A stretch of 64,000 nt of DNA from positions 1 through 64,000 of the forward strand of contig NZ_JAALJI010000001.1 in NCBI RefSeq assembly GCF_011064595.1, read 5' to 3'. Every line of letters starts with the position of its first letter. Positions within the stretch are counted from its first letter, which is position 1. Below, in pieces: positions 1-16,393 of this stretch. Below the pieces are notes generated by a model. That model made no database searches. It had not been told where the DNA came from and saw only the letters and a program-made list of their open reading frames with translations. A program made the translations under genes and the position numbers. The DNA comes from Paludisphaera soli (lineage in GTDB: Bacteria; Planctomycetota; Planctomycetia; Isosphaerales; Isosphaeraceae).

Positions 1-11
1 CTCCCAGGCAT
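1..11 (-). CDS. start of a phage-module gene running off the window (partial)
   Basis: An ATG on the minus strand at 11-9 opens a frame (Met-Pro-Gly) that leaves the window at once. A good Shine-Dalgarno sequence, GAGAGGAC, lies at 26-19, seven bases ahead. It would be the next gene after the small CDS ending at 72. Nothing can be said about its product. Confidence 0.3.
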
Positions 12-71
12 GCGAGACGTCCTCTCGTGGCGAAGATCGACCGTCGCGACCGCTCGACCCGACCGCGCGGA

Positions 72-272
72 TCAACCCAGCAGGCCCATCGCCTTCAGGT
101 CGTTGATCAGCCCGTTGAGGAGCTGGGTCGTGTTCTCGGAAAGGTTCCGGAGGTTTTCGTAGGCGGCCCGCAGGCCGTTGAGGTCGGCCGCCTGGGCGTA
201 AGGCGAGCTCCCCTGCCCCGAGGGGATGCCGGCGAAGGTGCCCGATATGGGGCTGGACGTATAGCCGGACAG
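72..272 (-). CDS. small phage-module protein with non-standard (CTG) start, or readthrough extension
   Basis: This 66-codon frame has almost pure G/C third positions, so it looks genuinely coding, yet it contains no ATG, GTG or TTG near its beginning. The best start is CTG at 272-270, nine bases after a GAGGA Shine-Dalgarno sequence that overlaps the stop codon of the preceding gene. The frame is the same as that of the 285-644 gene, so readthrough of the TGA at 287-285 would give one longer protein instead. The C-terminal half is a predicted amphipathic helix rich in Asn and Leu (AAYENLRNLSENTTQLL). It lies downstream of the capsid gene. The function is unknown; a head-completion or tail protein is possible by position only. 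Confidence 0.45.
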   Translation of the reverse strand: MSGYTSSPISGTFAGIPSGQGSSPYAQAADLNGLRAAYENLRNLSENTTQLLNGLINDLKAMGLLG

Positions 273-284
273 GGGCCAGGGTCC

Positions 285-644
285 TCAAGCCCGCTTGCGC
301 CGCGAGGCCGCGGCCGTCTGGGGCTGGAGGGGGTACGACGGGGGCGGCTCGGGGGCAGAGGCGGCCTCGGGGGGCCCCTCCACCGACTCGACCGCCTCGC
401 GGACGGCCAGGTCGATCCCCTCGACGGCCGCGGCCAGGGCGTCGCGGACCGCCCGGACGTGCTCCAGGAGCTCGCGACGGCTCCCGGCCTCCAGGGCGGG
501 GTACTGCCCCAGGGCGTCCTGCACCTGCTTGTAATGCCAGAGGCCCCGGCCCTGGCCGAGGTGCCGGAGGCCCCGGCCCTCGGCCGCGCGCTCGATGTAG
601 GGCCACAGGCCGGGGAACGTGAAGGTCGATCGCATGTTCATAAC
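285..644 (-). CDS. small phage-module protein of unknown function
   Basis: A 119-residue protein encoded 107 bases after the major capsid gene. I chose the ATG at 644 (MNMRSTFTFPG), because the 15 codons ahead of it are Arg/Pro-rich and look like out-of-frame sequence; ATG 638 is equally possible. The N-terminal part has a short aromatic segment (LWPYIERA, LWHYKQVQDALGQYP), the middle is a predicted helix rich in Ala, Glu and Arg, and the tail is Pro/Ala-rich and basic, ending in RRKRA. No family is recognised. Its place directly after the capsid gene would suit a head-tail connector or decoration protein, but that is inference. The stop is TGA, and the same frame reopens at once (see the entry at 72-272). 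Confidence 0.6.
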   Translation of the reverse strand, partial: VMNMRSTFTFPGLWPYIERAAEGRGLRHLGQGRGLWHYKQVQDALGQYPALEAGSRRELLEHVRAVRDALAAAVEGIDLAVREAVESVEGPPEAASAPEPPPSYPLQPQTAAASRRKRA

Positions 645-750
645 GGCTCGCGTCGAGGGTCGGGCGGGGCCGCCCCGGCGCCGGCTCACGGCCGGCGGCT
701 CGGGGCGGCCCCCGGGGGGGGCTCGGGGGCTCCGGGCGACCGATCGGCGG

Positions 751-1893
751 TCAGGCGGCCGAGAAGGCCGTGATGCCGGAGACCCAGGCGTGATGGGCCT
801 CGTTGTCGATCTCGACGGCGCCTTCCAGGATGATGTCGCCCTCGAAGGCGTCGCCCCGCGAGCCGCGCGGCTTGTCGATCATCGACCGCTTGAGCCGGAT
901 GCGGGACTCCTGGGCCGACAGGCAGACCGCGGTGCCGGGCCGGAGCAGCGGGGCCGGCACGATCGAGATGCCGGAGAGGAACGGGGCCTCGAACAGGTCG
1001 ATGGGCGTGCCGAAGACGTTGCTGCCGGCGTTGACCCGCATCGCCGCGTGGCCCCAGACGGCGAACGCCGAGAGGAAGTCGGTGCTGACCAGCAGGAGGC
1101 TCGGGTTGCCGCCGCCGTTGAAGCACGCCTGGATCGTGTCGCGGATCAGGTCGGAGGGCTTGTAGGCGGCGGCGTTCGTGGGCGCCGTCACCTTGTTGGT
1201 GGCCAGGATCGACTGGATGCCCTTCATGAGCGGGCGGCTCGTCGGCGAGGTCAGGCCCACGCCCTTGCCGTAGTAGACGGCCGACTCGAAGTCGTCCATC
1301 ACGTGCTGCATCGCCAGCATGCGGTCGCGGTCGAGCGGCGTGGCGAAGGCCGAGCCGTAGCCCGAGTCGGCCTGCAGGGCGCCGCCCACCTGGTAGGCGT
1401 GCTGCACGGTCTGGCAGTACTGGGTGGTGGCCTGCGGGATGCGGCTGAGGCCCGAGACGTTGGTCTCGGCGCCGGTCCGCGTGTTGCTGACCAGGAAGAT
1501 CGGCTGGGCGTCGGCGTGGCCGGCGGCCGTGGTGCCGGCGTAGCCGCGGGCGACCGTCAGGGTGTTGGCGGCCGCGTCGACGGCCGTCACCAGCAGGTAC
1601 TCCTGCTCGATCTGGACGACGTCGCCAGAGTCGAAGACCGAGGCGTCGGCCGCGATCAGCGTGGTCGCGCCGGCCGAGAGGGCCCCGCCGTTGTTCAGGG
1701 CGATCGACCGCGGGCGGTAGTTGTCGTTGACGATCAGGAAGTGGGGCGAGCCGACCGGCAGCTTCGGCAGCCGCGAGGTCAGCGGGGTGCGGTTGACGAA
1801 CCAGTTGATCGCCACGCCGAACACGTCGTTCGGGAGGACGCCGGCGTTGAGCGCGGAGAACTGGGTCAGCGGGCCGTTCTCGTACAGGGGCAT
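751..1893 (-). CDS. phage major capsid protein, SU10/DUF5309 type
   Basis: A 380-residue virion shell protein. It resembles the DUF5309 (phage SU10-type) major capsid family: an N-terminal arm, a beta-rich insertion of about residues 55-130 (ALSAGATTLIAADASVF, then VVQIEQEYLLVTAV), and a helix-turn segment with DRDRMLAMQHVMDDFESAVYYGKG followed by a RPLMKGIQSIL motif that is typical of the family. The C-terminal half has the expected alternating strands and ends in a EIDNEAHHAWVSG-like segment. The start ATG at 1893 has a GGAG ten bases upstream. It follows the scaffold gene by 119 bases, the usual scaffold-capsid order. No delta-domain fusion or truncation is seen. Confidence 0.85.
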   Translation of the reverse strand: MPLYENGPLTQFSALNAGVLPNDVFGVAINWFVNRTPLTSRLPKLPVGSPHFLIVNDNYRPRSIALNNGGALSAGATTLIAADASVFDSGDVVQIEQEYLLVTAVDAAANTLTVARGYAGTTAAGHADAQPIFLVSNTRTGAETNVSGLSRIPQATTQYCQTVQHAYQVGGALQADSGYGSAFATPLDRDRMLAMQHVMDDFESAVYYGKGVGLTSPTSRPLMKGIQSILATNKVTAPTNAAAYKPSDLIRDTIQACFNGGGNPSLLLVSTDFLSAFAVWGHAAMRVNAGSNVFGTPIDLFEAPFLSGISIVPAPLLRPGTAVCLSAQESRIRLKRSMIDKPRGSRGDAFEGDIILEGAVEIDNEAHHAWVSGITAFSAA

Positions 1894-2012
1894 TTAGGTC
1901 GACTCCGGTTGGGATCCGTCGGGATGGAGCGGCGGCCGACGCGGCCGGGCGTCCGGGGGGGAGGGGCGATTCGAGGCGGGGCTCGCCCCGGCTCGGCGCG
2001 GTTCGGTTCGGC

Positions 2013-2687
2013 TCAGGCCAGCGGGTGCAGGCCGAACGACTGGTACTGGTTCTGCCGGTCTTTCCACTGGTTGACGATCGCCTCCAGCGATCCCGGCTGC
2101 GCGCCCCGGGGCGCCGTGTAGGGGCGGCTGGCGTCGCCGCCGGCCCCCCCGCGAGACGTCGGGGCGAAGAAGATCGCGAACTGCGGCGATTCCAGCCGCT
2201 CGCGGAGGGCCTCGGAGGCCGGCCGGCCGGAGGCCCGCTCGCGCACCGTCAGGGCGCCGGAAGCCTCGCGGACCGTCTCGAACTCGTCCTGCAGGAGCCG
2301 ACGGACCATCGCGGCGGCGGCCGAACGCTGCTCGGCCGTCTCCCCGACGAACGTCCGCCCCTGGCAGGCCTCGGCGATGGCCGCCGACTTCCGCTCGCCG
2401 TACACCTGCTGCTCCAGCAGGGTGTATCGCGAGACGGCCTCGGCGTGCTTCTGCTCCCAGGCCTTCCGCTGCTGTTCGAGGGCCTCCTCGATCTGCCCCT
2501 TCTCGGCCAGCGCCCGCAGCCGTTCCTTCTCCTTCATCTCCAGCGTCGCCTCCTGCAGGCGCTGGTACTCCTTCAGCTGGGACTCCAGGGCCCGCAGGCG
2601 CTGGTGCTCCTCGGCCGTCAACGGCGCCGACGATTCGGCCGCCGCGCCGGCGCCGGGCTTCACTTCGACGTTCGTGTGATCGTTCAC
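2013..2687 (-). CDS. putative phage capsid scaffold protein
   Basis: A 224-residue protein whose residues about 25-100 form a strongly charged coiled coil (LKEYQRLQEATLEMKEKERL), as in phage scaffolds that shape the procapsid and are then removed. The C-terminal part contains a conserved-looking helix (VRRLLQDEFETVREA) and a Gly/Pro-rich tail. I chose GTG at 2687 because it sits seven bases behind a GAGG Shine-Dalgarno sequence; an ATG five codons upstream lacks one. The position between portal and major capsid genes is the standard place for a scaffold. The family assignment rests on coiled-coil character and gene order rather than on a specific motif. Confidence 0.7.
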   Translation of the reverse strand: MNDHTNVEVKPGAGAAAESSAPLTAEEHQRLRALESQLKEYQRLQEATLEMKEKERLRALAEKGQIEEALEQQRKAWEQKHAEAVSRYTLLEQQVYGERKSAAIAEACQGRTFVGETAEQRSAAAAMVRRLLQDEFETVREASGALTVRERASGRPASEALRERLESPQFAIFFAPTSRGGAGGDASRPYTAPRGAQPGSLEAIVNQWKDRQNQYQSFGLHPLA

Positions 2688-2749
2688 GGAATGACCTCGC
2701 ACGGGGACGGGATGGGCCGGCGTCGCGGGGGGGCGGTACGGGGGGCCCC

Positions 2750-3115
2750 TCAGGGCTCGCCCCGGCCCCCCGCGACGCCGAGCCCGAGGTAAACGTCGAT
2801 CTCGGCGTCGAAGACGCCGTAGTCGCCGTCGTCAAGGCCCGGCAGCATGACTCGGACGAGCTTGCCGAGCATCTCGCTCTCGGTCAGCGGCGCGTTGCCG
2901 GCCGCCGCCAGGATGGCCTGGAACTGGCCCATCGTGCGGGCCAGCTCCTCGCCGGTGAACAGGTCGAACGAGCTGGGATACTGGATCCGGACCGCTTCCC
3001 GATCCTCGGGCGAAGTCTCGCCCCCGCCCTGGACCAGGAGGGCCAGGTCCGCGAGGCGACGCTCAGCCTGGCCGAGCGTCGAGGCGACCTTGCTCAGAAG
3101 GTCGTTCCCCGCCGC
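2750..3115 (-). pseudogene. C-terminal part of the portal protein, cut off by an in-frame TAG
   Basis: After the TAG at 3118-3116 the portal frame stays open for about 120 more codons with normal G/C third positions and no frameshift. The translation begins AAGNDLLSKVAST, continues with LGQAERRLADLALLV and IQYPSSFDLFTGEELA, and ends after a LVRVMLPGLDDGDY segment and a short Gly-rich tail. A helix followed by a YPSSFD(L)-type strand is what I expect at the C-terminal end of portals of this size. The first ATG after the TAG (2932) would leave only 60 residues, and no ribosome-binding site precedes the region, so independent translation is unlikely. Either the gene carries a nonsense mutation (CAG to TAG would do it) or the amber codon is read through. 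Confidence 0.7.
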
Positions 3116-4363
3116 CTAGTCGATCCGCTTCGACACGCCGCTCTGGGCGACCGTCGAGCCGCCCGTCCCGGCGGAGCCCGCCGGCTTGAGCAGCAGGGCG
3201 GCGCGGTCGGCGGCGTCGCGTAGGTCGGCCTTGTTCAGCCGCAGCGAGTCGGCACCCTCCTTCGGGAACTGGACGACGTCGAACCCCTCGTAGGTCGCGG
3301 CGCCCCCCTGGGTGTTCTTCTTCTTCGGCAGCAGCCAGTTCGGGCCGATGGGCACGGCGCCGTCCGCCTTGACGTAGTCCTCCGGGCCCTGCAGGAGCGG
3401 GTGGGCCTGGGTGGTGTCGCTCAGGATCAGCTCGCTGTCCCGGTTGTAGAACTCGCGCTGGATCTCGGCGATGCTCTCGTATCGGGGGAGGCCGATGTTG
3501 CGGCATCGGGGCCGGCGGCGGTCGAACACGCGGACGATCGGGACCCTGCCGTAGCCGTGGTCCACGGGGCCCTTGACGACCTCGCCCTTCTCGTCGAAGA
3601 GCGTCCACGACCGCTCGTCCCAGTGCCGCCACGACGAGCGGCCCTCGTCGTGGACCTCGCGGACGAGGCACTCCAGGTAGCGGCCGGAGCGGTCGAGCCG
3701 CCACCAGACCATGTTCTCCGGCAGGATGTACGAGGCGACGCAGGCGTCGAGCCCCAGGCGGATCTCGTCGGCCCGCGTGCGGACCGGCTCGTCGTCGGGG
3801 GCCGCCGGCCGATCGACCATGAGGTCGAGCTGGCCCAGGACCAGCAGCAGCGGGGCTACCGAGTTGGACATGAAGTCGTCGATCGAGGAGCCCCGGCCGT
3901 CGACGTCTCGCCACCAGGCCGTCAGCCGCTCGGGCCCGCTCCGCTTGACCTCGCGGCTGTAGATGCGGGCCAGGTGGGCCTCGACGGCCTCGGAGACGAA
4001 GGTCGGCACGGGGGTCCGCGCCCGCCGCAGCTCGTAGTCGTCGTCGGTCGCCTGGTGGGCGGGATCGGTCCCGATCGGCCTCCCGTTCGCGGGATAAGAG
4101 CCGGATTCGAGGGCCGAGGGATACTCCCGCTTGTGGCGGACGAGGTTCCGGACCGGCATCCCGTGCGGGTCGTACCCGTACACGGCCGTCCGGTAGGCCT
4201 CGCCCCCCTCCCAGGAGTCGAGCAGCCATCGCCAGGGGAGCTGATTCGCGAGCCACTCGGGATGGGGGTGGTCGAGCCGCCGGCCGTCCGGCAGGGCGAG
4301 CCGCGGCATGCCGGCGCCCGGCATCGGGAAGACCGACGCTCCGATCGTGTTCGATGTCAGCAT
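3116..4363 (-). CDS. phage portal protein, N-terminal 415 residues before an amber codon
   Basis: The portal forms the dodecameric ring at the capsid vertex through which DNA is packaged. Support comes from its position between TerL and scaffold genes, its size, and sequence features typical of portals: an N-terminal segment with many Trp/Tyr (HPEWLANQLPWRWLLDSW), a central helical part with YSREVKRSGPERLTAWW, a beta-rich wing with WRHWDERSWTLFDEKGE, and a stem-like helix with YESIAEIQREFYNRDSEL. It starts at ATG 4363, ten bases after GGAAG. The frame stops at TAG 3118-3116, yet coding continues in frame to 2750 (separate entry); read together the product would be about 537 residues. All the other intact genes checked in this module stop with TGA or TAA, so the single TAG stands out. 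Confidence 0.85.
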   Translation of the reverse strand: MLTSNTIGASVFPMPGAGMPRLALPDGRRLDHPHPEWLANQLPWRWLLDSWEGGEAYRTAVYGYDPHGMPVRNLVRHKREYPSALESGSYPANGRPIGTDPAHQATDDDYELRRARTPVPTFVSEAVEAHLARIYSREVKRSGPERLTAWWRDVDGRGSSIDDFMSNSVAPLLLVLGQLDLMVDRPAAPDDEPVRTRADEIRLGLDACVASYILPENMVWWRLDRSGRYLECLVREVHDEGRSSWRHWDERSWTLFDEKGEVVKGPVDHGYGRVPIVRVFDRRRPRCRNIGLPRYESIAEIQREFYNRDSELILSDTTQAHPLLQGPEDYVKADGAVPIGPNWLLPKKKNTQGGAATYEGFDVVQFPKEGADSLRLNKADLRDAADRAALLLKPAGSAGTGGSTVAQSGVSKRID

Positions 4364-4418
4364 CTTGGTGGTGTCTTCCGCTGGTATGAAGGAGGGGGGA
4401 AAGGGGGGCCGGGGACGC

Positions 4419-5999
4419 TCAGAACACGCGGCCGGCCTTCGCCCGGCGGAGCGGGGGCTCCTCGGGCGACGCCCCGTCGGGGAGGGCCACGCTCAGCCCG
4501 CCGCGGAGCGCGTCGATCAGGTCTTCCCACGGATGCTGCGGGTCGGCCGGGTAGTCCATCCACTGTCCCGAGCGCCGCGCCCGGGCGTAGCTCTGGAAGG
4601 CCGCGATCAGTCGCGTGCATCGCGGATGGATCGCCATCCGGGCCGAGCCGTCGGCCGACCTCACGAGGCTCTCGATCAGGTTCAGCCCCTCCAGCACGCA
4701 GCCGGGGTAGCGCGGCCAGGGCTCGAGGCCCGTCTCGCCGACCAGGCCGCAGCGGCGGTATTCCGAGACGACCGTCGGCCCGACCGGGTTGCGGGCTCCC
4801 CCCGCCGAGTCGGTCGAGACGTGGCGGAGCGCCGAGCCGCACATCCGGTCGAGCATCGCCACGACCTCCAGGGCGCACGCCTCGGCCGAGCGGCCCTCCG
4901 CCAGGTAGTCGGCGAAGACGTGGATCCGGGCCGGCTCGGGGACGGGCGCCCAGGCCCAGCCGGGCCGGACCTGGAAGAAGACGGCACCGGTGAAGACGCC
5001 CGAGTCGATCGCGACGTGCACCGGCAGCGACGGGTCGAAGTCGGCGTCGTCGCGGACGTTCTCCGACTCGTCGAAGTCCTTGAACCAGACGCCGTCGGCC
5101 TTGGGGCCCCGGCAGAGGTAGTCGCTCGCGAAGACGCGGGGGGAGACCCCCCGGACCTTCTGGATCAGGGCGTCGATCCCGTAGTGCCCGTCGCTCCGCT
5201 TGGCCTTGGGGCGGCCCTTCGGGTCGGCGTCGCGGTCCTCGTGGCACCACGGCATCAGCGGACATTCGGGGCACTTCTCCAGCCGCCGGCCGCTCCGCTC
5301 GGGGGGGCAGCGCTCGAGCACTTCGAAGATGCAGTAGGTGTGGATGGGGAAGGCGCCGGCGTGGGCCTGCTCCACAAGGCCGGCCATCGGGCCGGCGGGG
5401 CGGTGCCAGGTTGACGTCATCAGCACGCTCGCCTTCACCCCCCGGAGGTCCATCGCCATGCCGAGGGCCGACTCGCGGATCTCCGGGTCGATCTCGTCCA
5501 CCTCGTCGAGCTTGAGGCTGGCGACGTGGGGGCCGCGGACGCTGGTGGGACTGGCGGCGAGGATCGCCACCCGCGAGCCGTTGACGTAGGTCGCCTCGGT
5601 CTTCAGCAGCCTCCGGACCGAGTCCCGGTCGCCCCCCAGGACGCCCGCGCCCTCGAAGACGGTGGCCTGCAGGGCCCGGTAGATCTGCTCGGACTGGGCC
5701 CGCGAGCCCCCGAGGACGTGGGTCTCGTGGCGGGGGTGGAACCGGCTGGCCAGGTGCGTGTCGAGCGCCGAGAGGAACGACTTGCCGCTGCCCCGAGGCC
5801 CGTGCCAGAGGGCGAGCGAGGGGCGGTCCAGGACCTGGTCGGCGAACATGTCGAACGGGGCCGAATGCCCCTGGCAGACGGGACGCGCCGGGATCCGGAC
5901 GCCGGCGAAGCCGCGCACCCAGTCCCGCAGCTCGGCCCTGGTCTTGGGCCTGCGGTCACGAACGGCCTTGAGCACTCGAGCGATCCTTGACGGGTCCAC
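4419..5999 (-). CDS. phage terminase large subunit (packaging ATPase/nuclease)
   Basis: The 526-residue motor that cuts concatemeric phage DNA and pumps it into the procapsid. The ATPase domain shows Walker A GPRGSGKS at about residues 66-73 and Walker B LKLDEVDEID at about 160-169, followed by a motif III-like SVLMTST. The C-terminal RNase H-like nuclease domain has the acidic residue in VAIDSG (about 327), an Asp in STDSAGG, and a late Asp in DLIDALR (about 493). Between the two lies a cysteine cluster (CPPE then EKCPECPLMPWC, about 228-252) that could bind zinc or an iron-sulfur cluster. It starts at GTG 5999, six bases after GGAGG, and overlaps the preceding gene by 44 bases, which suggests translational coupling. 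Confidence 0.92.
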   Translation of the reverse strand: MDPSRIARVLKAVRDRRPKTRAELRDWVRGFAGVRIPARPVCQGHSAPFDMFADQVLDRPSLALWHGPRGSGKSFLSALDTHLASRFHPRHETHVLGGSRAQSEQIYRALQATVFEGAGVLGGDRDSVRRLLKTEATYVNGSRVAILAASPTSVRGPHVASLKLDEVDEIDPEIRESALGMAMDLRGVKASVLMTSTWHRPAGPMAGLVEQAHAGAFPIHTYCIFEVLERCPPERSGRRLEKCPECPLMPWCHEDRDADPKGRPKAKRSDGHYGIDALIQKVRGVSPRVFASDYLCRGPKADGVWFKDFDESENVRDDADFDPSLPVHVAIDSGVFTGAVFFQVRPGWAWAPVPEPARIHVFADYLAEGRSAEACALEVVAMLDRMCGSALRHVSTDSAGGARNPVGPTVVSEYRRCGLVGETGLEPWPRYPGCVLEGLNLIESLVRSADGSARMAIHPRCTRLIAAFQSYARARRSGQWMDYPADPQHPWEDLIDALRGGLSVALPDGASPEEPPLRRAKAGRVF

Positions 6000-6294
6000 G
6001 GACGGCCTCCAAAACCCTGCGGGCGGTCTCGTCGTCGATCGGCGTCGCCGCCTCCTCGGCCGCGGGGGCGGCCGGGGCGAGGCGGCGGGACAGCACGGCC
6101 CAGGCGCGGAGGTCTCCCCTGACGGCCGCTGCGATCAGGGCCTCGGCCGCGCGTTCGGCCCAGGTCCGGGAGGGGTCGTCGCTGGGGGCGGCCAGCCGCT
6201 CTCGGAGCCGCTGGTCCAGCCCCGGGGCCGGGGGGTCGTCGGCCTCGACCGGGGGATGAGGGCCGAGGGATTTGGTCGCGACGCCGTCGCCCAT
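5956..6294 (-). CDS. putative small terminase subunit
   Basis: A 112-residue protein immediately upstream of, and overlapping by 44 bases, the large terminase gene. I chose ATG 6294 (MGDGVATKSL) because the frame further upstream is Arg/Pro-rich non-coding-type sequence. The centre is helical (TWAERAAEALIAAAVRGDL, then RAWAVLSRRL) and is followed by an acidic segment (IDDETARRVLEAV). Small terminases recognise packaging-start DNA and are poorly conserved, so position is the main evidence. The helical core resembles proteins annotated upstream of TerL in other phages of this type, but no HTH motif is clear. Confidence 0.6.
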   Translation of the reverse strand: MGDGVATKSLGPHPPVEADDPPAPGLDQRLRERLAAPSDDPSRTWAERAAEALIAAAVRGDLRAWAVLSRRLAPAAPAAEEAATPIDDETARRVLEAVRGPVKDRSSAQGRS

Positions 6295-6335
6295 GATCGA
6301 GGTTTCCCGAGGAGGAGGAGGGCCGTCACGGCCGC

Positions 6336-6623
6336 TCAGCGGACCGCGGGCAGCCGGGTCAGGATCTGTTCCAGCTTGTCCAGGAGTTCGCCGTGGAGGC
6401 GACGCTCGGCGTCCCGCCGCTCGCGGTCGCGCTCCATCTCGGCCGCGAGGGGGCCGGGCTCGGCCTGCCGCCGGTCGAACGCCAGGAGCTCGCGTCGCTG
6501 CGACTGGGAGAGCGCCAGGATCACCGCACCTGCGAGGCAGAGCGTGGCGATCAGGGCCGGGAGCCGGCTCCACCGACTCGTCGCCCACTCTCCGAACGGT
6601 TCCAAGACATTCTTAATCGTCAT
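6336..6623 (-). CDS. small single-pass membrane protein, possible holin or i-spanin
   Basis: A 95-residue protein with one predicted membrane helix (LPALIATLCLAGAVILAL, about residues 21-38) followed by a charged, helical C-terminal domain rich in Arg and Glu (AEMERDRERRDAERRL). This layout, an N-terminal anchor plus a periplasmic coiled coil, is that of inner-membrane spanins, but holins and phage accessory proteins can look alike. The start codon overlaps the end of the upstream gene by 11 bases. It belongs to a run of small membrane-protein genes between the peptidase and the terminase genes, which suggests a lysis cassette. The specific role is inference. Confidence 0.6.
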   Translation of the reverse strand: MTIKNVLEPFGEWATSRWSRLPALIATLCLAGAVILALSQSQRRELLAFDRRQAEPGPLAAEMERDRERRDAERRLHGELLDKLEQILTRLPAVR

Positions 6624-6972
6624 TGCGTGGATCCGGGAATGGTCTGATGTCGGGGGCGGGGGGAAGGGCGCCGTCCGCCGCGCGGGCGGCCCTGATCCAG
6701 CCCAGCACCGCCTCGACGACCTCAGCCGCGTGGTCGGTCCGGGCCTGGATCCGAAGCTTCGCCAGTTCGTGCTCGCGCTGCTTCTGCCGGTCCTGCCAGA
6801 AGTCCTTCGTGAACGCCGAGATCGCGGCGATCAGGCCGGCGCCCCCCAGGAGGAACGAGCCGGCCCCGACCGTCGGGTCCGCCGAGACGGACTCCGCGAC
6901 CAGGGCCGTGCTCGTCGCCAGGAGCCCCCCGGCGTAGGCGAGATTCTGGGAGACGTACGGGAAGTAGCTCAT
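6613..6972 (-). CDS. small membrane protein of the putative lysis cassette
   Basis: A 119-residue protein with a weakly hydrophobic N-terminal stretch (YAGGLLATSTALVAES) and a stronger predicted membrane helix (SFLLGGAGLIAAISAF, about 39-54), then a charged helical region (DRQKQREHELAKLRIQ) and a Pro-rich tail. It uses TAA as stop and overlaps the next gene by 11 bases, so the two are probably translated together. Holin-like by size and context; no family motif is recognised. Confidence 0.6.
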   Translation of the reverse strand: MSYFPYVSQNLAYAGGLLATSTALVAESVSADPTVGAGSFLLGGAGLIAAISAFTKDFWQDRQKQREHELAKLRIQARTDHAAEVVEAVLGWIRAARAADGALPPAPDIRPFPDPRNDD

Positions 6973-7036
6973 GACGTAAACCCATCCTTCTCGGGGGGGC
7001 GCCCGCTCGATGGGCGGGAGATCCCGGGCGAGGCGG

Positions 7037-7252
7037 TCAATCGCGTTCGGGCTTGGCGGCGGAAGCCGCGTGCAGCCCGACCGCGCTGGCGCCGCTGAAG
7101 AGCACCAGCATCGCCTCGAAGATCGTCTCCAGCCCCTGGTCGTAGTGCTTCGATAGGATCATTCCGATCCCGGAGGCGACGGCGGCGGCCACCGACGCAT
7201 ACGTCTTGTAGTTGCGCAAAACTTTGAGGATAAGCACAATCGTCGTGTTCAT
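7037..7252 (-). CDS. 71-residue holin-like membrane protein
   Basis: A very small protein with two predicted membrane segments (TYASVAAAVASGIGMIL, then TIFEAMLVLFSGASAVGL) joined by a short polar loop (SKHYDQG), and a Lys/Arg/Asp tail. This is the class II holin layout. ATG 7252 sits eight bases after AAGG. The larger open frame around it reads as Arg/Pro-rich nonsense upstream of this ATG. It lies between the papain-like peptidase and further small membrane proteins, which supports a lysis function, but phage holins share little sequence and this remains a context call. Confidence 0.6.
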   Translation of the reverse strand: MNTTIVLILKVLRNYKTYASVAAAVASGIGMILSKHYDQGLETIFEAMLVLFSGASAVGLHAASAAKPERD

Positions 7253-7274
7253 CTTCGTCGGCCTTTCGTCGCGG

Positions 7275-7352
7275 TCAGTAGGGGGGGAGGCATTCCCAGA
7301 TCGATTCGGACGCCACCAGCCAGGCGGCGGCGACGGCCAGGGCCGCCAGCAG
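7275..7352 (-). CDS. possible tiny transmembrane peptide with CTG start
   Basis: A frame ending at TGA 7277-7275 encodes one hydrophobic helix (LLAALAVAAAWLVAS) followed by ESIWECLPPY, with strong G/C third positions. It has no ATG, GTG or TTG start outside the upstream peptidase gene. A CTG seven bases after GAGGA would give 25 residues. The evidence is thin: it could equally be a chance open frame in GC-rich DNA. Confidence 0.25.
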   Translation of the reverse strand: MLAALAVAAAWLVASESIWECLPPY

Positions 7353-7452
7353 GATGCGGTCCTCGGGGCCGATCGCCGCGGCCCTCGCCGCGATCGCCGC
7401 CGGCGGAGGGTGCGGCGGGTCGCGGCGGAGTCGCGGCCGGGGCGGGTGGCGG

Positions 7453-8352
7453 TCAGGCGGCGCGATGGTAGCTCCAGTACTCCGGGAGCGCTCGGGTGAC
7501 GAACTCGGGGGCCCTGGCCATCGCCCAGGAATCCCCCTGAGCGAGGATCCTCTCGACCGTCGCCCGGTCGGCCCAGAAGCTGTAGCTCGGCTGATCCAGG
7601 GCGAGCGGGCCGGTCGGCTGGTCGGGGCCCCAACTCTGCAGGATGCAGGCGCCGGGGCGGTCGAACCGGACCCCACCGATCAGCATGCAGTGGCCCCACG
7701 TCCCCTGGGCCGCGCAGAAGCCGTCGCGGTCCCTGGCGGTCGTGAACCCCTGGTTCGAGCAGATGGAGACCGGGTAGCCGTTCCGCATGGCCGCGACCAG
7801 CTCGCCCCAGGTCGAGGCCCGGGCGGCCGAGCCGAGCCGCAGCGAGGCGGCCTTGGCCTTGAGCTCGGCGGGGGCGCCGTGGTGGCCCCAGGACCTGGCC
7901 CGATCGCCGCTGTAGTCGCCGCCGCCGCCCAGCATCTCGCGGCTGACGACGCCGATGGTGGACATCGCCGAGATCGCCGCCGAGCCGTAGGAGCCGTCGC
8001 CGCGGCCGAGGATCCCCGCCACTTCGCGGGACGCCGCGTAGATGAACTCGGTCGACGTTTCGCGGTACTCCGAGGCCTCGCCCAGGGCGATCTCGACGCA
8101 CTGGAGCAAGTCGAGCCCGTGGCCGTGGCCGTGGCCCACGCAGTCGCCGATCTGTTGCGCCGGATAGGCCGGATAGCGGCCGAGGACGTCCCGGAAGGCC
8201 CTGTACAGGAGGATGGGGGCGCCGCCCCGGTCCCCGGCCATCAGGCCGGGGGCGGCCGACGAGAAGGTGGGGCGCCGGGCGGCGAAGCTCCGCTGGACCT
8301 CGTCGGCGCCCAGCCATCCGTCGACGGCGTGATCATGCGTCGATTCGCTCAT
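7453..8352 (-). CDS. papain-like (C1 family) cysteine peptidase of the phage module
   Basis: A 299-residue protein with the signature of papain-fold peptidases: a nucleophile region QQIGDCVGHGHGHG (Gln of the oxyanion hole and Cys about residues 66-71), a His in TWGHCMLIGG (about 218-227) and the third active-site region in LQSWGPD (about 237-243), where the usual Asn is not obvious. There is no signal peptide. It sits beside holin-like genes, so it may cut peptide cross-links or cell-envelope protein during lysis; maturation of the phage head is an alternative. The start ATG has GAGAG nearby. Just upstream of that ribosome-binding site, at 8365-8375, is a run of 11 identical bases (C on the coding strand). 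Confidence 0.75.
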   Translation of the reverse strand: MSESTHDHAVDGWLGADEVQRSFAARRPTFSSAAPGLMAGDRGGAPILLYRAFRDVLGRYPAYPAQQIGDCVGHGHGHGLDLLQCVEIALGEASEYRETSTEFIYAASREVAGILGRGDGSYGSAAISAMSTIGVVSREMLGGGGDYSGDRARSWGHHGAPAELKAKAASLRLGSAARASTWGELVAAMRNGYPVSICSNQGFTTARDRDGFCAAQGTWGHCMLIGGVRFDRPGACILQSWGPDQPTGPLALDQPSYSFWADRATVERILAQGDSWAMARAPEFVTRALPEYWSYHRAA

Positions 8353-8397
8353 TGGATCTCTCGCGGGGGGGGGGGATGGGGGCCGCGGGGGTCGGGC

Positions 8398-8856
8398 TCA
8401 CTCGGCCTCGGAGAGGCCGGCCGCGAACGCCCGCCAGATGGCGGCGAGGGCCACCTTGTCGGCCCGCGAGACCTCGGCGTCGGGCTTCCCCTCGGGGACC
8501 GCGGCGGCGAAGGACCGGGCGACGACGCGATCGAACAGGGCGGTGCGGCCCGCGGCCCAAGTCTCGGCCACCAGCGAGAGCGACTCGTTGACGCCCCGTC
8601 CGGACTCCAACGCGTCGGCCCCTTGTCGCCAGGCCTCGGCGTAGACGGCCCCGAGGGCCTTCGGATAGGCCCGGCCGATCGACTCCATGGCATGGGCCGA
8701 CTCCGGCCCGGTCGACGCGTCGCGGCGGTTCGTCCAGGCGACGCCCGCCGCGGCGGAGACCGCGGCGACGACGAGCGTCGGCCCCCAACGCCTCGCGAGG
8801 AGGGCCGTCGTCGAGAGGGCGGCTTCGAAGGGCATGCGGATTCCCTGCAGCGACAT
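8398..8856 (-). CDS. membrane-anchored protein of unknown function
   Basis: A 152-residue protein with an N-terminal predicted membrane helix (WGPTLVVAAVSAAAGVAW, about residues 24-41) and a helical remainder rich in Ala and Glu with several Trp residues (YAEAWRQGADAL, ALAAIWRAFAAGL). The frame ends 45 bases before the peptidase gene and is probably co-transcribed with it. No family is recognised. The Ala-rich helical domain could be a structural or lysis-associated component, but nothing in the sequence decides this. Confidence 0.6.
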   Translation of the reverse strand: MSLQGIRMPFEAALSTTALLARRWGPTLVVAAVSAAAGVAWTNRRDASTGPESAHAMESIGRAYPKALGAVYAEAWRQGADALESGRGVNESLSLVAETWAAGRTALFDRVVARSFAAAVPEGKPDAEVSRADKVALAAIWRAFAAGLSEAE

Positions 8857-8960
8857 GGCGGATCACCCCGATTGCTTTGGCGAGTCTCACGACGGACGCA
8901 CGAAGGGGGGGCCGGCGTCGCCGTCGTCGGCGCCGGGCGTGCCGGAGCGGAAAGGGACCG

Positions 8961-9530
8961 TCAGGGGCGGAGCGAGGCGAACCGCCGGGCCCGCCGCTCA
9001 CGCCTCGTCTCGGATGCGGGCGAGGCCGCGACCTCCTCGCGGAGGCCCCGGCCGGCGGGCGTCGGCGCGGCCGACTCGGGCTCGGGGGCTGGGTCGGTCG
9101 CCGGGTCGCGTTTCATGGCCGGGTGGCCGTCGACGCCCGATTGCGAGCAGACCATGCAGCAGAAGAGGGAACCGGGGCGGATCGGCCCGCGATGCGGGCA
9201 TTCCGAGGCCGGCGTGAACGCGCCGATCGGGAACAAGGGGACGAGCTCCAGCCACCAGGGCGTCCTGATGCCGGCCGATCCCGGCGAAGACCCTTCGAGG
9301 CCGTCGCCGTCCCGCATCGGCAGGATGTCCGCGGCGGTCTCTTCCTGAGGGTGGGAGGCTTCCTGCTCGCGAAGCCTGGCCAACGCCCGCCTCACGAGTT
9401 GGACGCTCACGCCGGCTCCCCCGGCGATCGCCGAGGTCGATTTCCCTTCCTGGTGGAGCCGAAGCCACTCCTGGTCGCGGACCTCGCGGGCCACCCCGTT
9501 GACCCGTCTCTTTCTCGTCGCGTTTCCCAT
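8961..9530 (-). CDS. helix-turn-helix protein with a cysteine-rich zinc-binding-type motif
   Basis: A 189-residue protein. Residues about 18-55 form a helix-turn-helix (LRLHQEGKSTSAIAGGAGV, then QLVRRALARL) of the kind found in recombinase/resolvase and terminase-associated DNA-binding proteins. Residues about 108-131 hold a cysteine cluster (ECPHRG, then LFCCMVCSQSG) suited to binding a metal. The tail is disordered and Pro/Glu-rich. ATG 9530 lies eight bases after GGAGA, and a promoter is visible at 9582-9610. It is the first gene of the phage module, so it could be its regulator. From memory, similar HTH/CxxC proteins recur in planctomycete genomes, but this was not checked. Confidence 0.7.
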   Translation of the reverse strand: MGNATRKRRVNGVAREVRDQEWLRLHQEGKSTSAIAGGAGVSVQLVRRALARLREQEASHPQEETAADILPMRDGDGLEGSSPGSAGIRTPWWLELVPLFPIGAFTPASECPHRGPIRPGSLFCCMVCSQSGVDGHPAMKRDPATDPAPEPESAAPTPAGRGLREEVAASPASETRRERRARRFASLRP

Positions 9531-9581
9531 GACGTCATCTCCCGGCCCGCCCGGCCCTCGGTCGACGTCTACCTAAGTTGT

Positions 9582-9610
9582 GCTATACAAAACGAAATGC
9601 GGAAAGGCAA
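9582..9610 (-). promoter_or_regulatory. sigma70-type promoter for the phage-module HTH gene
   Basis: On the minus strand TTGCCT (9610-9605) and TATAGC (9587-9582) are separated by exactly 17 bases, about 50 bases ahead of the HTH gene start. A small inverted repeat, TTGT-N5-ACAA at 9578-9590, overlaps the -10 element and could be a repressor site. Called by eye. Confidence 0.45.
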
Positions 9611-9741
9611 CTCGACCGACGAATTCGGGAGAATTGCGCAAGTCTCTGTGAGACCGAGCTTAACGATCCGGGAAAATGTCCAGTCTGGGAAACTTGAGGC
9701 GGTGCGTGGGGAGTCGGATGCACAATGAGGATGTGGAACGC

Positions 9742-9766
9742 GGGGGTTTCGAGGCTCGAATCCCCC
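9742..9766. repeat. 25-bp inverted repeat between phage module and uvrA
   Basis: GGGGG-T-TTCGAG, a central G, then CTCGAA-T-CCCCC: eleven paired positions around 9754 with a single T/T mismatch. It lies 127 bases past the uvrA stop codon. It could be a transcription-terminator hairpin, although no U-tract follows on either strand, or a protein-binding or attachment site at the phage-module edge. It looks superficially like a tRNA T-arm, but no tRNA surrounds it. Confidence 0.55.
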
Positions 9767-9892
9767 CGAATGGACGAGATCGACACGAAGACGCCCGCCC
9801 GGCCCTCGCTCGACCTCGCGAACGTCGTCAGGATTTTTGTCAGGAACGCAAGCGCGGCGCGAGGCCGCGTCGTCGGCGCGGCCGGGGTCGGC

Positions 9893-12800
9893 TCAGAGCT
9901 CGGCGGCCGTCTTCAGGCGGGGGAGCCGGGCCCAGCGGGCCAGTGAGGCCGCGGCCTGGGCGAGGAACTCCTCGAAGGCCGGCGTCTGGAAGTCGGCCAG
10001 GGAGTGGCCCGTGATGGTGACTTCCTGGAGCCCGGACGCCCCGGAGACCTTGAGCCGGGGGGCGTCGGAGAGGACGGGGGTCGGGCCGTCGTGGAACGGG
10101 ATGAGGCCGAGCCTGGCGGCCAGCGACTTCTCCTGGAACGTGTTGCGCGGGACCCGGAATCGCAGGGTGACGACCCACTCGCTGCCGGTCGTCGCCTGGA
10201 AGAAGGCGACTTCGGATTCGCCGTCGGGCCCGACGACGCCGATGCGGACCGCCCCGCGCTGGTTCCAATCGGTCGGCCCGAGAGATTCGCCGCCGAGCGC
10301 CTCCAGGCGGTCGACGACGTGCCCCAGGATCCGGCCGTCCCAGCGCACGGGACGGCCGTTGCGCGAGGTCCGATCCTCCAGGTGCCACTTCCGGCCGTCG
10401 CGCTCCCAGGGGGCGAGGGCCGCGCCGACCTCGGCCGTCGCCGTCGCGCGGCCGCCGGACTTGGGTTTCGGGGCCTTCCCCTTCCCGGGCTCGGCGAGGC
10501 GGGCGGCCTTGGCCTCGGCGGCGGCCTTCTTGGCGGCCTCCTTGGGGTCGAAGCGGGGACGCTCGGCGAACGGGCCGTCGGCGAGCAAGCTGCGGAGGAA
10601 GCGGGGGGTGTGGCCGCGATCGCAGGCGGCGATCGATTCCGGCGGACCTTCGACGACGATCTCGCCGCCCCCCCGGCCCGCCTCGGGGCCCAGGTCGATC
10701 ACCCAATCGGACGTCTTGATCACGTCCAGGTTGTGCTCGATCACGACCACGGTGTTCCCCAGGTCGGCCAGGCGGTGGACGACGTCGAGCAGCTTGCGGA
10801 CGTCGTCGACGTGCAGGCCGGTGGTCGGCTCGTCGAGGATGTAGAGCGTCTTGCCGGTGTCGGGCCGGGACAGCTCCGAAGCCAGCTTGACGCGCTGGGC
10901 CTCGCCGCCGGAGAGGGTCGGGGCGGACTGGCCGAGCGGCAGGTAGCCCAGGCCGACGTCGTGCAGCGTCCGGAGGATCCGCTTGATCCTGGGGACCTTG
11001 TCGAACAGCTCCAGGGCCTCGTCGACCGACATGTCGAGCACGTCGGCGATCGTCTTTCCGCGGAAGGTCACGGCGAGGACCTCGGGCGTGAAGCGGCGGC
11101 CCTTGCACGAGTCGCAGACGACCCAGACGTCGGGGAGGAAGTGCATCTCGATGCGCTTCTGGCCGGCCCCCTCGCAGGCCTCGCAGCGCCCGCCCGGCAT
11201 GTTGAAGCTGAACCGGCGGGCGGTGTAGCCGCGGACCTTGGCCTCGGGGAGCTTCGCGAACAGCTCGCGGATCAGGTCGAACGTCCCCGAGTAGGTGGCG
11301 GCCGTGGAGTTCGGGGTGCCGCCGAGCGGGGACTGGTCCACGCGGATGACCTTGTCGATCTGCTCCAGGCCGAGGATCGCCTCGACGGCCCCGGGCGAGA
11401 CCTGCGCGCGGTGGAGGGTCCGGGCGGCCGTCTTCCACAGCACGTCTTCCACCAGCGTGCTCTTGCCGGAGCCCGAGACGCCCGTCACCACCGTCACCAC
11501 GCCGAGCGGGATCCGGACGTCCAGGTCCTTCAGGTTGTTGTGCCGGGCCCCCTTGATCAGGAGCGCGGGGACGCCGGAATCGGAGCCCGCCGGGCGGCGG
11601 TTGGTCGGGATCGGGATCGCCTTCGTCCCGCCGAGATACGCGCCCGTGAGCGACTTCGGGTCGGCGGCGACCTGGGCGGGGGGGCCGCTGGCGGTGACCT
11701 CGCCGCCGAACCGCCCGGAGCCGGGGCCGAAGTCGACGAGGGCGTCGGCCGCCTCGATGATCTCGCGGTCGTGCTCGACCAGGACGACGGTGTTCCCCAG
11801 GTCGCGGAGCCGCCGAAGCGCGCCCAGCAGGCGGCCGTTGTCGCGGGGGTGGAGGCCGATCGTCGGCTCGTCCAGGACGTACAGGACCCCCGTCAGGCCG
11901 CTGCCGATCTGGCTGGCCAGCCGGATGCGCTGGCTCTCGCCGCCCGAGAGGGTCGGCGTGCTCCGCCCCAGCGAGAGGTAGTCGAGCCCGACCTCGACCA
12001 GGAACGAGAGCCGCTCGCGGACCTCGCGGACGAGGTCGCCGGCGATGTGGCGCTTCTCGTCGTTCAGGTCGAGCTTCTCGAAGAAGTCGAGGGCCAGGCC
12101 CAGGGGCATCCGGCTGATCTGGTCGAGCGTCTGGCCCTCGAACCGGACGGCCGCGGCGTCGTCGCGAAGCCTGGCCCCCACGCACGCCGCGCACGGGACG
12201 TCGTCGACGAGCCCCTGGAGCTTCCAGCGATACTGGAACGAGACGCGGCCGGCCTCCTCGATCGCCGGGAAGAGGCCCTTGAACTGGAACGAGAAGCCGG
12301 GGGCGTCGCCCTCGCCGGGCAGCTCGTACCAGACGTCGGTCCGGCCGTGGAGGATCGTCCGGCGGTGGCGGGCCTCCAGGCCGTCGAAGGGCGCGTCGAG
12401 GTCGATCCCCTCGGCCCGGGCGACCGCTTCGATCATCCGCCCGAAGGCCCGATTCTCGCGGACGTCGGGCCAGACGGCGACCGCCTTGTCCCGCAGCGAC
12501 CGCGACGGGTCGGGGATGAGGACCGCCGGGTTCGCCCCCTGCTGGACGCCCAGGCCTTCGCAGACCGGGCACCAGCCGAGCGGGCTGTTGAACGAGAAGT
12601 GGTGCGGCGACAGCTCCTCGAAGCTCCGCCCGCACTGGTCGCAGGAACGATGCTGGCTGAAGCGGTCGACGGGCCATTTCGCCTCGACGAGGTCGTCGAC
12701 GACCCGGGCGACCAGCACCACCCCCTTGCCCAGGTCGAGGGCCGACTCCACCGCGTCGGCCAGCCGGGCGCGCGTCGAGCGGCGGACGACGGCGCGGTCG

Positions 12801-15800
12801 ACGACGACCTCGACCTGATGCTTGCGGCGGCGGCTCAGCTTGGGGGGGGCGTCCAGCTCGATCGTCCGGCCGTCGACCCGGGCCCGGGCGAAGCCGGAGG
12901 CCTTCAGGGTGAGCCACAGGTCGTCGTACGACTCGTTGTCGCGGCGGTCGACCGGCGCCATGACGTGGACGCGCGAGCCTTCGGGGAGCTGGAGGATCTT
13001 CTCGATGATCTCGTCGGACGTCTGCGAGCCGATGATGATCCCGCACGAGGGGCAATACGGATGGCCCAGCCGCGCGACCAGGATGCGGAGGTAGTCGTGG
13101 ATCTCTGTGACGGTGCCGACGGTCGACCGCGGGCTCTTGCTGGTGGTCTTCTGCTCGATGCTCACGGCCGGCGAGAGGCCGGTGATCTTGTCGACCCGGG
13201 GCTTGGGGAGCGGGGCCAGGAACTGGCGGGCGTAGCTGGAGAGGCTCTCGACGTACCGCCGCTGGCCCTCGGCGTAGAGCGTGTCGATCGCCAGCGAGCT
13301 CTTGCCCGAGCCGCTGGGCCCGCTGCAGACCGTCATCTTGTTGCGCGGGATGTCCAGGTCCACGCCCTTCAGGTTGTGCTGGCGGGCGCCCCGCACCGAG
13401 ATCAGGTCCAGCCCCTCCTCGGACGACCGGGCCTTCCCCTTCCCCTTCGCCCCCTTCGCGGCCTTCGGCCGGCCGACGCGTCGCTTCGGGTCGGGCTTGA
13501 GGACTCGCTCCAAGGCGCGGCCGGTGTGGCTCTCGGCGACCCGGGCGACGGCCTCGGGCGGCCCTTCGGCCACGACCACGCCGCCGCCGGAGCCCCCCTC
13601 GGGGCCGAGGTCGATGAGCCAGTCGGCCGTCTTGACGACGTCCAAGTTGTGCTCGACGACCACGACGGTGTTGCCGCGAGCCTTGAAGCCGTGCAGGACG
13701 TTCAGGAGCTTGCGGACGTCCTCGAAGTGGAGCCCGGTGGTCGGCTCGTCGAGGATGTAGAGGGTCTTGCCCGTCCCCCGCCGGACCAGCTCGCGGGCCA
13801 GCTTGATGCGCTGGGCCTCGCCGCCCGAGAGGGTCGGCGAGGCCTGGCCGAGCTTCAGATAGTCGAGCCCGACGTCGTGCAGGGTCTGGAGCATGGCCGC
13901 GATCTTGGGGACGTTCGCGAAGTGTTCCAGGGCCTCCTGCACGTCCATGTCCAGCACGTCGCTGATGCTCTTGCCCTTGTAGCGGACGTGGAGCGTCTCG
14001 CGGGTGAACCGGCGGCCTTCGCAGACCGGGCAGACGACCCAGACGTCGGCCAGGAAGTCCATCTCCAGCTTGTTCGAGCCGTTCCCCTCGCAGGCCTCGC
14101 AGCGCCCGCCCGAGACGTTGAAGCTGAACCGGCCGGGCTGGTAGCCCCGCGCCCGGGAGTCGGGCAGCTTCGTGTAGAGGTCGCGGATCAGGTCCCAAAG
14201 CTTGATGTAGGTAGCGGCGTTGGAGCGGGGCGTGCGGCCGATGGGGGACTGGTCGATGTCGATGACCTTGTCGAGCTGGTCCATCCCCTCGATCGCGTCG
14301 TGCTCGCCGGGGACGGACTGCGCTCCGTTCAGGTCGCGGGCGAGGGCGTCTCGCAGGATGTCGCTGACGAGCGAGCTCTTGCCCGAGCCCGACACGCCGG
14401 TGACGCAGACGAACAGGCCGAGCGGGAAGGCGACGTCGATCCCCCGCAGGTTGTTCTGCCTCGCCCCGCGGATCACCAGCTCGCGGCCGTCGGGCGCCTT
14501 CCGCTCCTTGGGGATCTCGATCCGCGCCTTGCCCGAAAGGTAGGCCCCGGTCAGGCTGTCCTTGGCCTTCTCCAGGGCCTTGAGGTCCCCCTGGGCGACG
14601 ACCTCGCCCCCCTTCACGCCGGGGCCGGGGCCGAAGTCGACGAGCCAGTCGGCCGCGCGCATGGTGTCCTCGTCGTGCTCGACGACGATGACGGTGTTGC
14701 CCACGTCCCGGAGCTTCTGGAGCGCCGAGATCAGGCTGTCGTTGTCGCGGGCGTGGAGGCCGATCGAGGGCTCGTCGAGGATGTAGAGCACCCCCACCAG
14801 CCCCGCGCCCACCTGGCTCGCCAGCCGGATGCGCTGGGCCTCGCCGCCGGAGAGGGTCGGGGCCGAGCGGTCGAGGCTGAGGTAGTGGAGGCCGACGTCG
14901 AGCAGGAAGCCGAGCCGGCCCCGGATCTCCTTGAGCAGCTCCTCGGCGATCGTCCGCGAGATCGGGTCCAGGGCGGTCGGCGTCGGGCCGTCGCCTTCCC
15001 TCGCGGCCGAGGGGTCGGCCAGGGCGTCGAAGAAGCCCTTGATGCGGCCGATGGGCCGGGACGAGAGCTCGACGAGCGTCGCCCCGCCGACCCGCACGGC
15101 CCGCGCGCGGGCGTTGAGCCGGGCGCCCTTGCACTCCGGGCAGGCCATGCTCCGCATGTAAGGTTCGAGCAGGGCGCGGGTGGGCGCGCCTCCCGAATTC
15201 TTGTAGCGATCGAGCAGCTCGGCGGCCACGCCCGGCCACTTCTCGGGGTGGGCCCAGGTCTTCCCCTTGGTCTTCCAGTGGCAGACGATGGTGCGGTCGC
15301 CGGCGCCGTGGAGCCAGACCTGCCGCCACTTCTCGTCGAGCTTGCTCCAGGGGCCCTTGAGCATCGTCCCGGCGGCCGGGCCGTCGGGGTCGGCCTCGAA
15401 ATTCTTGGCAACGGCCTCGAACAGGTGCTTGCGCCACTTGCCGACCTCCTTCACCGGGCCGAGCGGGGCGATGGCCCCGTCCCAGACCGAGAGCGAGTGG
15501 TCGGGGATCAGCAGCTCGGGGTCGAAGTCGTGGCGGACGCCCAGGCCGTCGCAGGCCGGGCACATCCCCTGGGGGCTGTTGAAGCTGAAGAGCTGGGGGC
15601 TGGGCGGATCGAACCCGATCCCGCAGTGGACGCACGCGTAATGCGCCGAGAGGACCAGGTCGGGGCGGCCCTCGATCGCCACCACCAGGGTCCCCTCCCC
15701 CATCTTGAGGGCCTGCTCGACCGCCTCGGCCAGCCGGCCTCGGGCGTTCTCGGCCGCGGTCGCCTTGAGGCGGTCGACCACGACCTCGATGTCGTGCTTG

Positions 15801-16393
15801 ATCTGGCGGTCGAGCCGGAGGTCGTCGGAGAGCGCGTAGACCTGGCCGTCGACCCGGGCGCGGACGTAGCCGGCCTTGGCGAGGTCCACGAACAGGTCCT
15901 TGTACTCCCCCTTCTGGCCCCGCACCACGGGGGCCAGCACGCTGAACGCCGTCCCGGTCGGGAGGTCCAGGATGCGGGCGACGATCTGCTCGCGGGTCTG
16001 GGCGGCGACCGGCCGGTCGCAGCGGGGGCAGTGGCCCTGGCCGACCCTGGCGAACAGGACGCGCAGGTAGTCGTTGATTTCGGTGATGGTGCCGACGGTC
16101 GACCGCGGGTTGCGGCCGCCGGTCTTCTGCTGGATCGAGATCGACGGCGAGAGCCCCTCGATCCGATCGACGTCGGGCTTGGGCATCTGGCCGAGGAACT
16201 GGCGGGCGTAGCTGGAGAGGCTCTCGACGTACCGCCGCTGGCCCTCGGCGTAGAGCGTGTCGAACGCCAGCGAGCTCTTGCCCGAGCCGGACACCCCCGT
16301 CAGGCAGATCAGCCGACCTCGCGGCAGGGTCAGCGACACGTCCCGGAGGTTGTGCTCGCGAGCCCCCCGGATCACCACGTCCGATGCCGCCAT
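9893..16393 (-). CDS. uvrA: tandem double-length UvrA (excinuclease ABC subunit A) with C-terminal extension
   Basis: UvrA recognises bulky DNA damage and loads UvrB in nucleotide-excision repair. This 2,166-residue protein contains two complete UvrA units in one chain. Four ABC ATPase domains show Walker A motifs GVSGSGKSS (about residue 34), a second GVSGSGKSS, GPSGSGKSS (start of unit two) and GVSGSGKST, each with a LSGGEAQRI/V or LSGGESQRI signature. Both units carry the zinc modules (CPRC/CVHC...CPAC/CEAC...CPVC, and CPSC/CDQC...CPVC/CEAC...CDSC). A Lys-rich linker at about 960-995 separates them. Residues about 1930-2166 form an extra Lys/Ala-rich linker and a folded-looking domain not found in ordinary UvrA (about 940 residues). 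I chose ATG 16393 because a promoter places transcription start near 16444; ATG 16438 is an alternative. Confidence 0.95.
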   Translation of the reverse strand: MAASDVVIRGAREHNLRDVSLTLPRGRLICLTGVSGSGKSSLAFDTLYAEGQRRYVESLSSYARQFLGQMPKPDVDRIEGLSPSISIQQKTGGRNPRSTVGTITEINDYLRVLFARVGQGHCPRCDRPVAAQTREQIVARILDLPTGTAFSVLAPVVRGQKGEYKDLFVDLAKAGYVRARVDGQVYALSDDLRLDRQIKHDIEVVVDRLKATAAENARGRLAEAVEQALKMGEGTLVVAIEGRPDLVLSAHYACVHCGIGFDPPSPQLFSFNSPQGMCPACDGLGVRHDFDPELLIPDHSLSVWDGAIAPLGPVKEVGKWRKHLFEAVAKNFEADPDGPAAGTMLKGPWSKLDEKWRQVWLHGAGDRTIVCHWKTKGKTWAHPEKWPGVAAELLDRYKNSGGAPTRALLEPYMRSMACPECKGARLNARARAVRVGGATLVELSSRPIGRIKGFFDALADPSAAREGDGPTPTALDPISRTIAEELLKEIRGRLGFLLDVGLHYLSLDRSAPTLSGGEAQRIRLASQVGAGLVGVLYILDEPSIGLHARDNDSLISALQKLRDVGNTVIVVEHDEDTMRAADWLVDFGPGPGVKGGEVVAQGDLKALEKAKDSLTGAYLSGKARIEIPKERKAPDGRELVIRGARQNNLRGIDVAFPLGLFVCVTGVSGSGKSSLVSDILRDALARDLNGAQSVPGEHDAIEGMDQLDKVIDIDQSPIGRTPRSNAATYIKLWDLIRDLYTKLPDSRARGYQPGRFSFNVSGGRCEACEGNGSNKLEMDFLADVWVVCPVCEGRRFTRETLHVRYKGKSISDVLDMDVQEALEHFANVPKIAAMLQTLHDVGLDYLKLGQASPTLSGGEAQRIKLARELVRRGTGKTLYILDEPTTGLHFEDVRKLLNVLHGFKARGNTVVVVEHNLDVVKTADWLIDLGPEGGSGGGVVVAEGPPEAVARVAESHTGRALERVLKPDPKRRVGRPKAAKGAKGKGKARSSEEGLDLISVRGARQHNLKGVDLDIPRNKMTVCSGPSGSGKSSLAIDTLYAEGQRRYVESLSSYARQFLAPLPKPRVDKITGLSPAVSIEQKTTSKSPRSTVGTVTEIHDYLRILVARLGHPYCPSCGIIIGSQTSDEIIEKILQLPEGSRVHVMAPVDRRDNESYDDLWLTLKASGFARARVDGRTIELDAPPKLSRRRKHQVEVVVDRAVVRRSTRARLADAVESALDLGKGVVLVARVVDDLVEAKWPVDRFSQHRSCDQCGRSFEELSPHHFSFNSPLGWCPVCEGLGVQQGANPAVLIPDPSRSLRDKAVAVWPDVRENRAFGRMIEAVARAEGIDLDAPFDGLEARHRRTILHGRTDVWYELPGEGDAPGFSFQFKGLFPAIEEAGRVSFQYRWKLQGLVDDVPCAACVGARLRDDAAAVRFEGQTLDQISRMPLGLALDFFEKLDLNDEKRHIAGDLVREVRERLSFLVEVGLDYLSLGRSTPTLSGGESQRIRLASQIGSGLTGVLYVLDEPTIGLHPRDNGRLLGALRRLRDLGNTVVLVEHDREIIEAADALVDFGPGSGRFGGEVTASGPPAQVAADPKSLTGAYLGGTKAIPIPTNRRPAGSDSGVPALLIKGARHNNLKDLDVRIPLGVVTVVTGVSGSGKSTLVEDVLWKTAARTLHRAQVSPGAVEAILGLEQIDKVIRVDQSPLGGTPNSTAATYSGTFDLIRELFAKLPEAKVRGYTARRFSFNMPGGRCEACEGAGQKRIEMHFLPDVWVVCDSCKGRRFTPEVLAVTFRGKTIADVLDMSVDEALELFDKVPRIKRILRTLHDVGLGYLPLGQSAPTLSGGEAQRVKLASELSRPDTGKTLYILDEPTTGLHVDDVRKLLDVVHRLADLGNTVVVIEHNLDVIKTSDWVIDLGPEAGRGGGEIVVEGPPESIAACDRGHTPRFLRSLLADGPFAERPRFDPKEAAKKAAAEAKAARLAEPGKGKAPKPKSGGRATATAEVGAALAPWERDGRKWHLEDRTSRNGRPVRWDGRILGHVVDRLEALGGESLGPTDWNQRGAVRIGVVGPDGESEVAFFQATTGSEWVVTLRFRVPRNTFQEKSLAARLGLIPFHDGPTPVLSDAPRLKVSGASGLQEVTITGHSLADFQTPAFEEFLAQAAASLARWARLPRLKTAAEL

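Follow-up and report, generated by a model that had tools for sequence, protein, structure and literature searches.

The window analysed here, a 64,000-nucleotide stretch of the Paludisphaera soli genome, carries on its minus strand a run of phage-type head genes beside the chromosomal gene uvrA (9893-16564), which is the same neighbour in four congeners (G002 to G005). With up to 2223 aa, the uvrA product is roughly double the normal size, and off-diagonal blastn matches reveal an internal duplication in the gene. The first conserved gene of the element is g1 (8398-8856), which shows genus conservation, followed by g2 (7453-8352), also conserved in the genus, which looks cysteine-peptidase-like by eye only and has no family match in Pfam, and by the small intact gene g3 (6613-6972). 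Then come the terminase large subunit (4419-5999; phrog_2, E 5.6e-12), the portal gene (4363-2750), the head scaffold protein (2013-2687; phrog_206, E 1.4e-8), the major capsid protein of the SU10_MCP family (751-1893; PF17236, E 3e-39; 98% identical to that of the sister species, G004) and g9, a small head-region gene of 118 aa (285-641). Terminase, scaffold, capsid and g9 are all intact. The run ends with the C-terminal remnant of a tail-region gene, g22 (72-263), whose product in the sister species has 263 aa.

The portal frame comprises 537 codons and a TGA stop, i.e. 538 codons when read from ATG through TGA, and is split by a single in-frame TAG at codon 416 (3118-3116, minus strand), as an earlier note on this DNA had pointed out. 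On the 3' side of the TAG the frame remains open for 121 codons (2750-3115), as far as the TGA at 2752-2750, and GC contents by codon position are similar on both sides (0.70/0.49/0.96 before and 0.77/0.45/0.92 after), in line with the roughly 120 in-frame codons of normal composition described previously; the next in-frame ATG call likewise starts about 61 codons past the TAG. Since the 121 codons match every homolog from end to end and remain conserved, the stretch is, as judged from this alignment, genuine portal sequence and not a chance open frame, which bears out the portal-like C-terminal character that had been ascribed to it. The product matches the portal family phrog_145 in a PHROG profile search (E 1.8e-38), and a Foldseek search with a low-confidence structural model (mean pLDDT 57.7) returned 16 matches with E values up to 0.001, all of them portal proteins or portal complexes; no relatives among solved portals were found by sequence search. 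In this model a long helix spans residues 417-445, directly past the cut.

A whole-genome search identified the portal gene in each of the six genus genomes, and its copies in the other five are 80-91% identical and uninterrupted. In an initial alignment with seven homologs, six have CAG at codon 416 and the seventh has CAA, and glutamine rather than a stop is found at this position in the five congeners as well as in second copies on contig C114 of P. soli and contig C15 of G003. Family members have Gln, His, Leu or Phe at this residue, and some homologs from viral contigs have Thr, Ala or Lys, but none has a stop. Portal matches were obtained in 34 of the 45 family genomes, and only the P. 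soli gene contains an internal stop; one apparent stop, in homolog L140, lies upstream of its start codon and was rejected as an artefact of coordinates. The portal alignment that had been proposed therefore shows relatives that read Gln without interruption and share the part past the TAG, and the possibility that related portals normally end at this position does not hold, as no relative's portal stops here. Carrying a premature in-frame stop that its orthologs lack, the P. soli portal is a probable pseudogene. Relatives are also encoded on 15 IMG/VR contigs. A pattern search of viral contigs returned no close strains, and a comparison of the element with 50,697 phage records gave no match.

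The second portal of P. soli, on C114, is intact and 56% identical to the interrupted one. Because its element carries a tyrosine integrase (PF00589), it is regarded as a separate, prophage-like element. It lies around 85-115 kb of that contig (L019, L020). Among its genes is a long tape-measure-like one, and a tRNA-Met is located near the terminase.

Besides the TAG, the cluster differs from those of its relatives by the absence of a block of about 13 kb, with the junction at window positions 264-284. Alignment of 40-kb contexts showed that window segments 285-16502 and 1-263, which adjoin each other here, are collinear but about 13 kb apart in the sister species, and they are similarly separated in G002. 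The missing block extends from g10 to g21 and includes most of g22, the start of which is absent. Their positions, together with weak matches, identify these as connector, fibre and tail-region genes. All five relatives largely have the block, although g11 and g12 were not detected in G003 and g19 is poorly conserved. A search of the whole P. soli assembly found no orthologs of the block; the matches it gave were weak, mainly to the second element on C114 at about 66%, and relocation of the tail genes to another contig was rejected on this ground. The junction lies less than 300 bases from the contig end and was read from assembly sequence only, that of a 197-contig draft. Contig C139 resumes the same order after a further 1.2 kb or so; it opens with the last part of g23 and runs through g24 and g25 to the flanking glycosyltransferase. 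Because it continues the collinear order, the deletion is bracketed on both sides, by C1 and C139. A chimeric contig end was likewise rejected, as window positions 1-300 occur once and C139 continues the order across the gap.

The retained head genes are under purifying selection. Relative to the sister species, dN/dS is 0.049 for the capsid, 0.067 for the terminase, 0.087 for the portal and 0.157 for the scaffold, compared with 0.150 for uvrA; within the portal it is 0.079 before the TAG and 0.117 after it. When the seven retained genes were pooled, the P. soli branch had 98 nonsynonymous and 180 synonymous changes (98N:180S) versus 108N:309S on the sister branch (Fisher p 0.009), and the same comparison for uvrA gave no nonsynonymous excess (p 0.23); the pooled odds ratio of 1.56 is modest and not established as distinct from the 1.22 of uvrA. 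For the part of the portal past the TAG, the nonsynonymous excess falls short of significance (p 0.17 and 0.34), and the first 415 codons are still constrained on the P. soli branch (13N:41S). With the portal strongly constrained on either side of the TAG, it is the stop alone that marks the gene as dead. Since the head genes that remain are undamaged and still conserved, both breaks, the TAG and the deletion, appear to be recent.

The cluster, about 25 kb long when intact, has the same fixed location in each of the six genus genomes (in the sister species, from L009:7869 to L010:12937). It is flanked on one side by uvrA, except in G001, where uvrA is inverted and lies further upstream, and on the other side by the same glycosyltransferase in all six genomes. 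Two genomes from another genus, one of them Aquisphaera insulae (G007), have orthologs of two genes that in P. soli lie near the element (window positions 20491-20886 and 20938-21684), and there these orthologs are located about 1 kb from it. The cluster is kept intact at one site across the genus, and probably in the other genus too. The sister species has the terminase, portal, capsid and tail set, of which P. soli lacks the tail part. No integrase or replication genes were recognised in the cluster with PHROG and Pfam, most of its small genes being unannotated and g13 having been scanned in part, and it contains no relative of the C114 integrase. The gene between g18 and g20 is fast-changing and comparatively short in the fixed-site elements, at about 205-348 aa (L010:6869-7714 in the sister species), where the second elements on C114 of P. 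soli and C15 of G003 have long tape-measure-like genes of 693 and 512 aa, respectively. The dS between P. soli and the sister species is 0.54 for the portal and 0.45 for uvrA. In FastTree gene trees, P. soli pairs with the sister species for the terminase large subunit, portal, major capsid protein and uvrA; congruence is only partial, because gt334 and the scaffold do not support this pairing. Given the fixed site, the lack of a recognisable integrase and the neighbours in common with a second genus, the cluster is probably not a recent prophage, and we infer that it has been inherited vertically within the genus.

Very probably, the TAG arose by a nonsense mutation, specific to this species, in the portal gene of a structural gene cluster of phage origin, and this cluster is undergoing decay in P. 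soli. A glutamine codon would have changed to amber in this species only, and translation would stop after residue 415; because it would end before the long conserved helix and the portal C-terminal part, no working portal is expected, and the protein needed for DNA packaging would presumably no longer be made. A separate deletion would have taken out the connector and tail genes, and the decay of the cluster is supported by this independent second lesion, the loss of the tail block. The intact cluster would be an old element devoid of a recognisable integrase that has presumably been passed down within the genus at a single position on the chromosome. The earlier note had suggested a decaying prophage with a CAG to TAG change, and most of this stands, given glutamine in all close relatives and the loss of about 13 kb of tail genes; the plain label of prophage is probably incomplete, because the cluster occupies the same site in six of six genomes and has no recognisable integrase. 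The main rival to a real nonsense change is an artefact of base calling, assembly or culture, with the portal intact in the organism. The TAG is a single-base event in a draft of 197 contigs, and elsewhere the gene is undamaged and still under constraint; however, with the element independently damaged by loss of the tail block, a broken portal is unsurprising, and an artefact is considered unlikely. Retention of the truncated 415-residue protein, whether it works as a shorter portal or serves some other purpose, would agree with the constraint on the first 415 codons on the P. soli branch, but the cut falls just ahead of the helix at 417-445, in a part common to all homologs, there is no relative with a portal ending here, and the sequence past the stop shows no significantly faster decay, which leaves this the least credible of the readings weighed here.

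The earlier note had also offered readthrough or recoding of the TAG, whether by a suppressor tRNA, pyrrolysine or a phage code change, which would yield a full-length portal and would fit the open and conserved frame past the TAG. It gains no support from the genome, and we consider it very improbable. The window contains no tRNA genes, and the search for a suppressor that had been proposed found no CUA anticodon with ARAGORN among the 55 Rfam tRNA matches in the genome. Release factor RF1 (prfA) is present above the cut-off, and the best matches to PylS reach 25 bits against a cut-off of 178, so that decoding by a suppressor tRNA or as pyrrolysine was rejected. Among the retained element genes only the portal has an in-frame TAG, and TAG ends genes normally, both in the C114 element and at orthologous gene ends, as in uvrA of G004, g3 of G001 and g9 of G005. 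For the same reason, the earlier observation that the other intact genes of the module stop with TGA or TAA is true but weak as evidence, as TAG serves as an ordinary stop for other genes of this genome and genus. Moreover, the TAG is not common to relatives, and the tail genes required for a particle are absent. Some unusual tRNA-like loci were encountered in the genome: a weak one of 37 bits with an odd two-base anticodon call (L055, G000:C165:68105-68177), and a low-scoring tRNA-Cys of 39 bits (L065, G000:C187:165711-165963), beside which lies a short tRNA of 73 bases, assigned to Leu with anticodon TAG, which would read CUA and not the UAG stop.

By itself the amber codon represents ordinary decay, and what merits further attention is the fixed-site cluster. 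The cluster appears to be akin to gene transfer agents and to have been passed on vertically, with P. soli having lost the element. It is conceivable, though still doubtful, that the intact cluster, a candidate gene transfer agent (GTA), is indeed one of Isosphaeraceae, and that P. soli represents a recent natural loss-of-production lineage whose relatives keep the system. In the literature searched, titles and the opening parts of abstracts contained no report of a GTA in Planctomycetes/Planctomycetota. Should the cluster prove to package host DNA, gene transfer agents would extend to a new phylum, and P. soli and its relatives would offer a natural pair of non-producer and producer for comparison.

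Among known systems, degenerate prophages of tailed phages share with this locus the order of terminase, portal, scaffold and capsid genes and the combination of a nonsense mutation with a deletion, whereas here there is no recognisable integrase or replication gene and the site is the same across the genus. Stop-codon-reassigned phages with suppressor tRNAs similarly have in-frame TAG codons within structural genes, but the P. soli cluster has a single TAG, no suppressor tRNA was found in its genome, and TAG still serves as a stop. The GTAs of α-proteobacteria, for which pseudogenization and complete loss in multiple lineages have been reported (PMC10883770), are comparable in that elements of the RcGTA type possess phage-like head and tail genes, are inherited vertically and have been pseudogenised or deleted in some lineages. 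The likeness concerns the kinds of genes and their presumed inheritance; the cluster belongs to another phylum and differs from the RcGTA type in its SU10-type capsid and phrog_145 portal.
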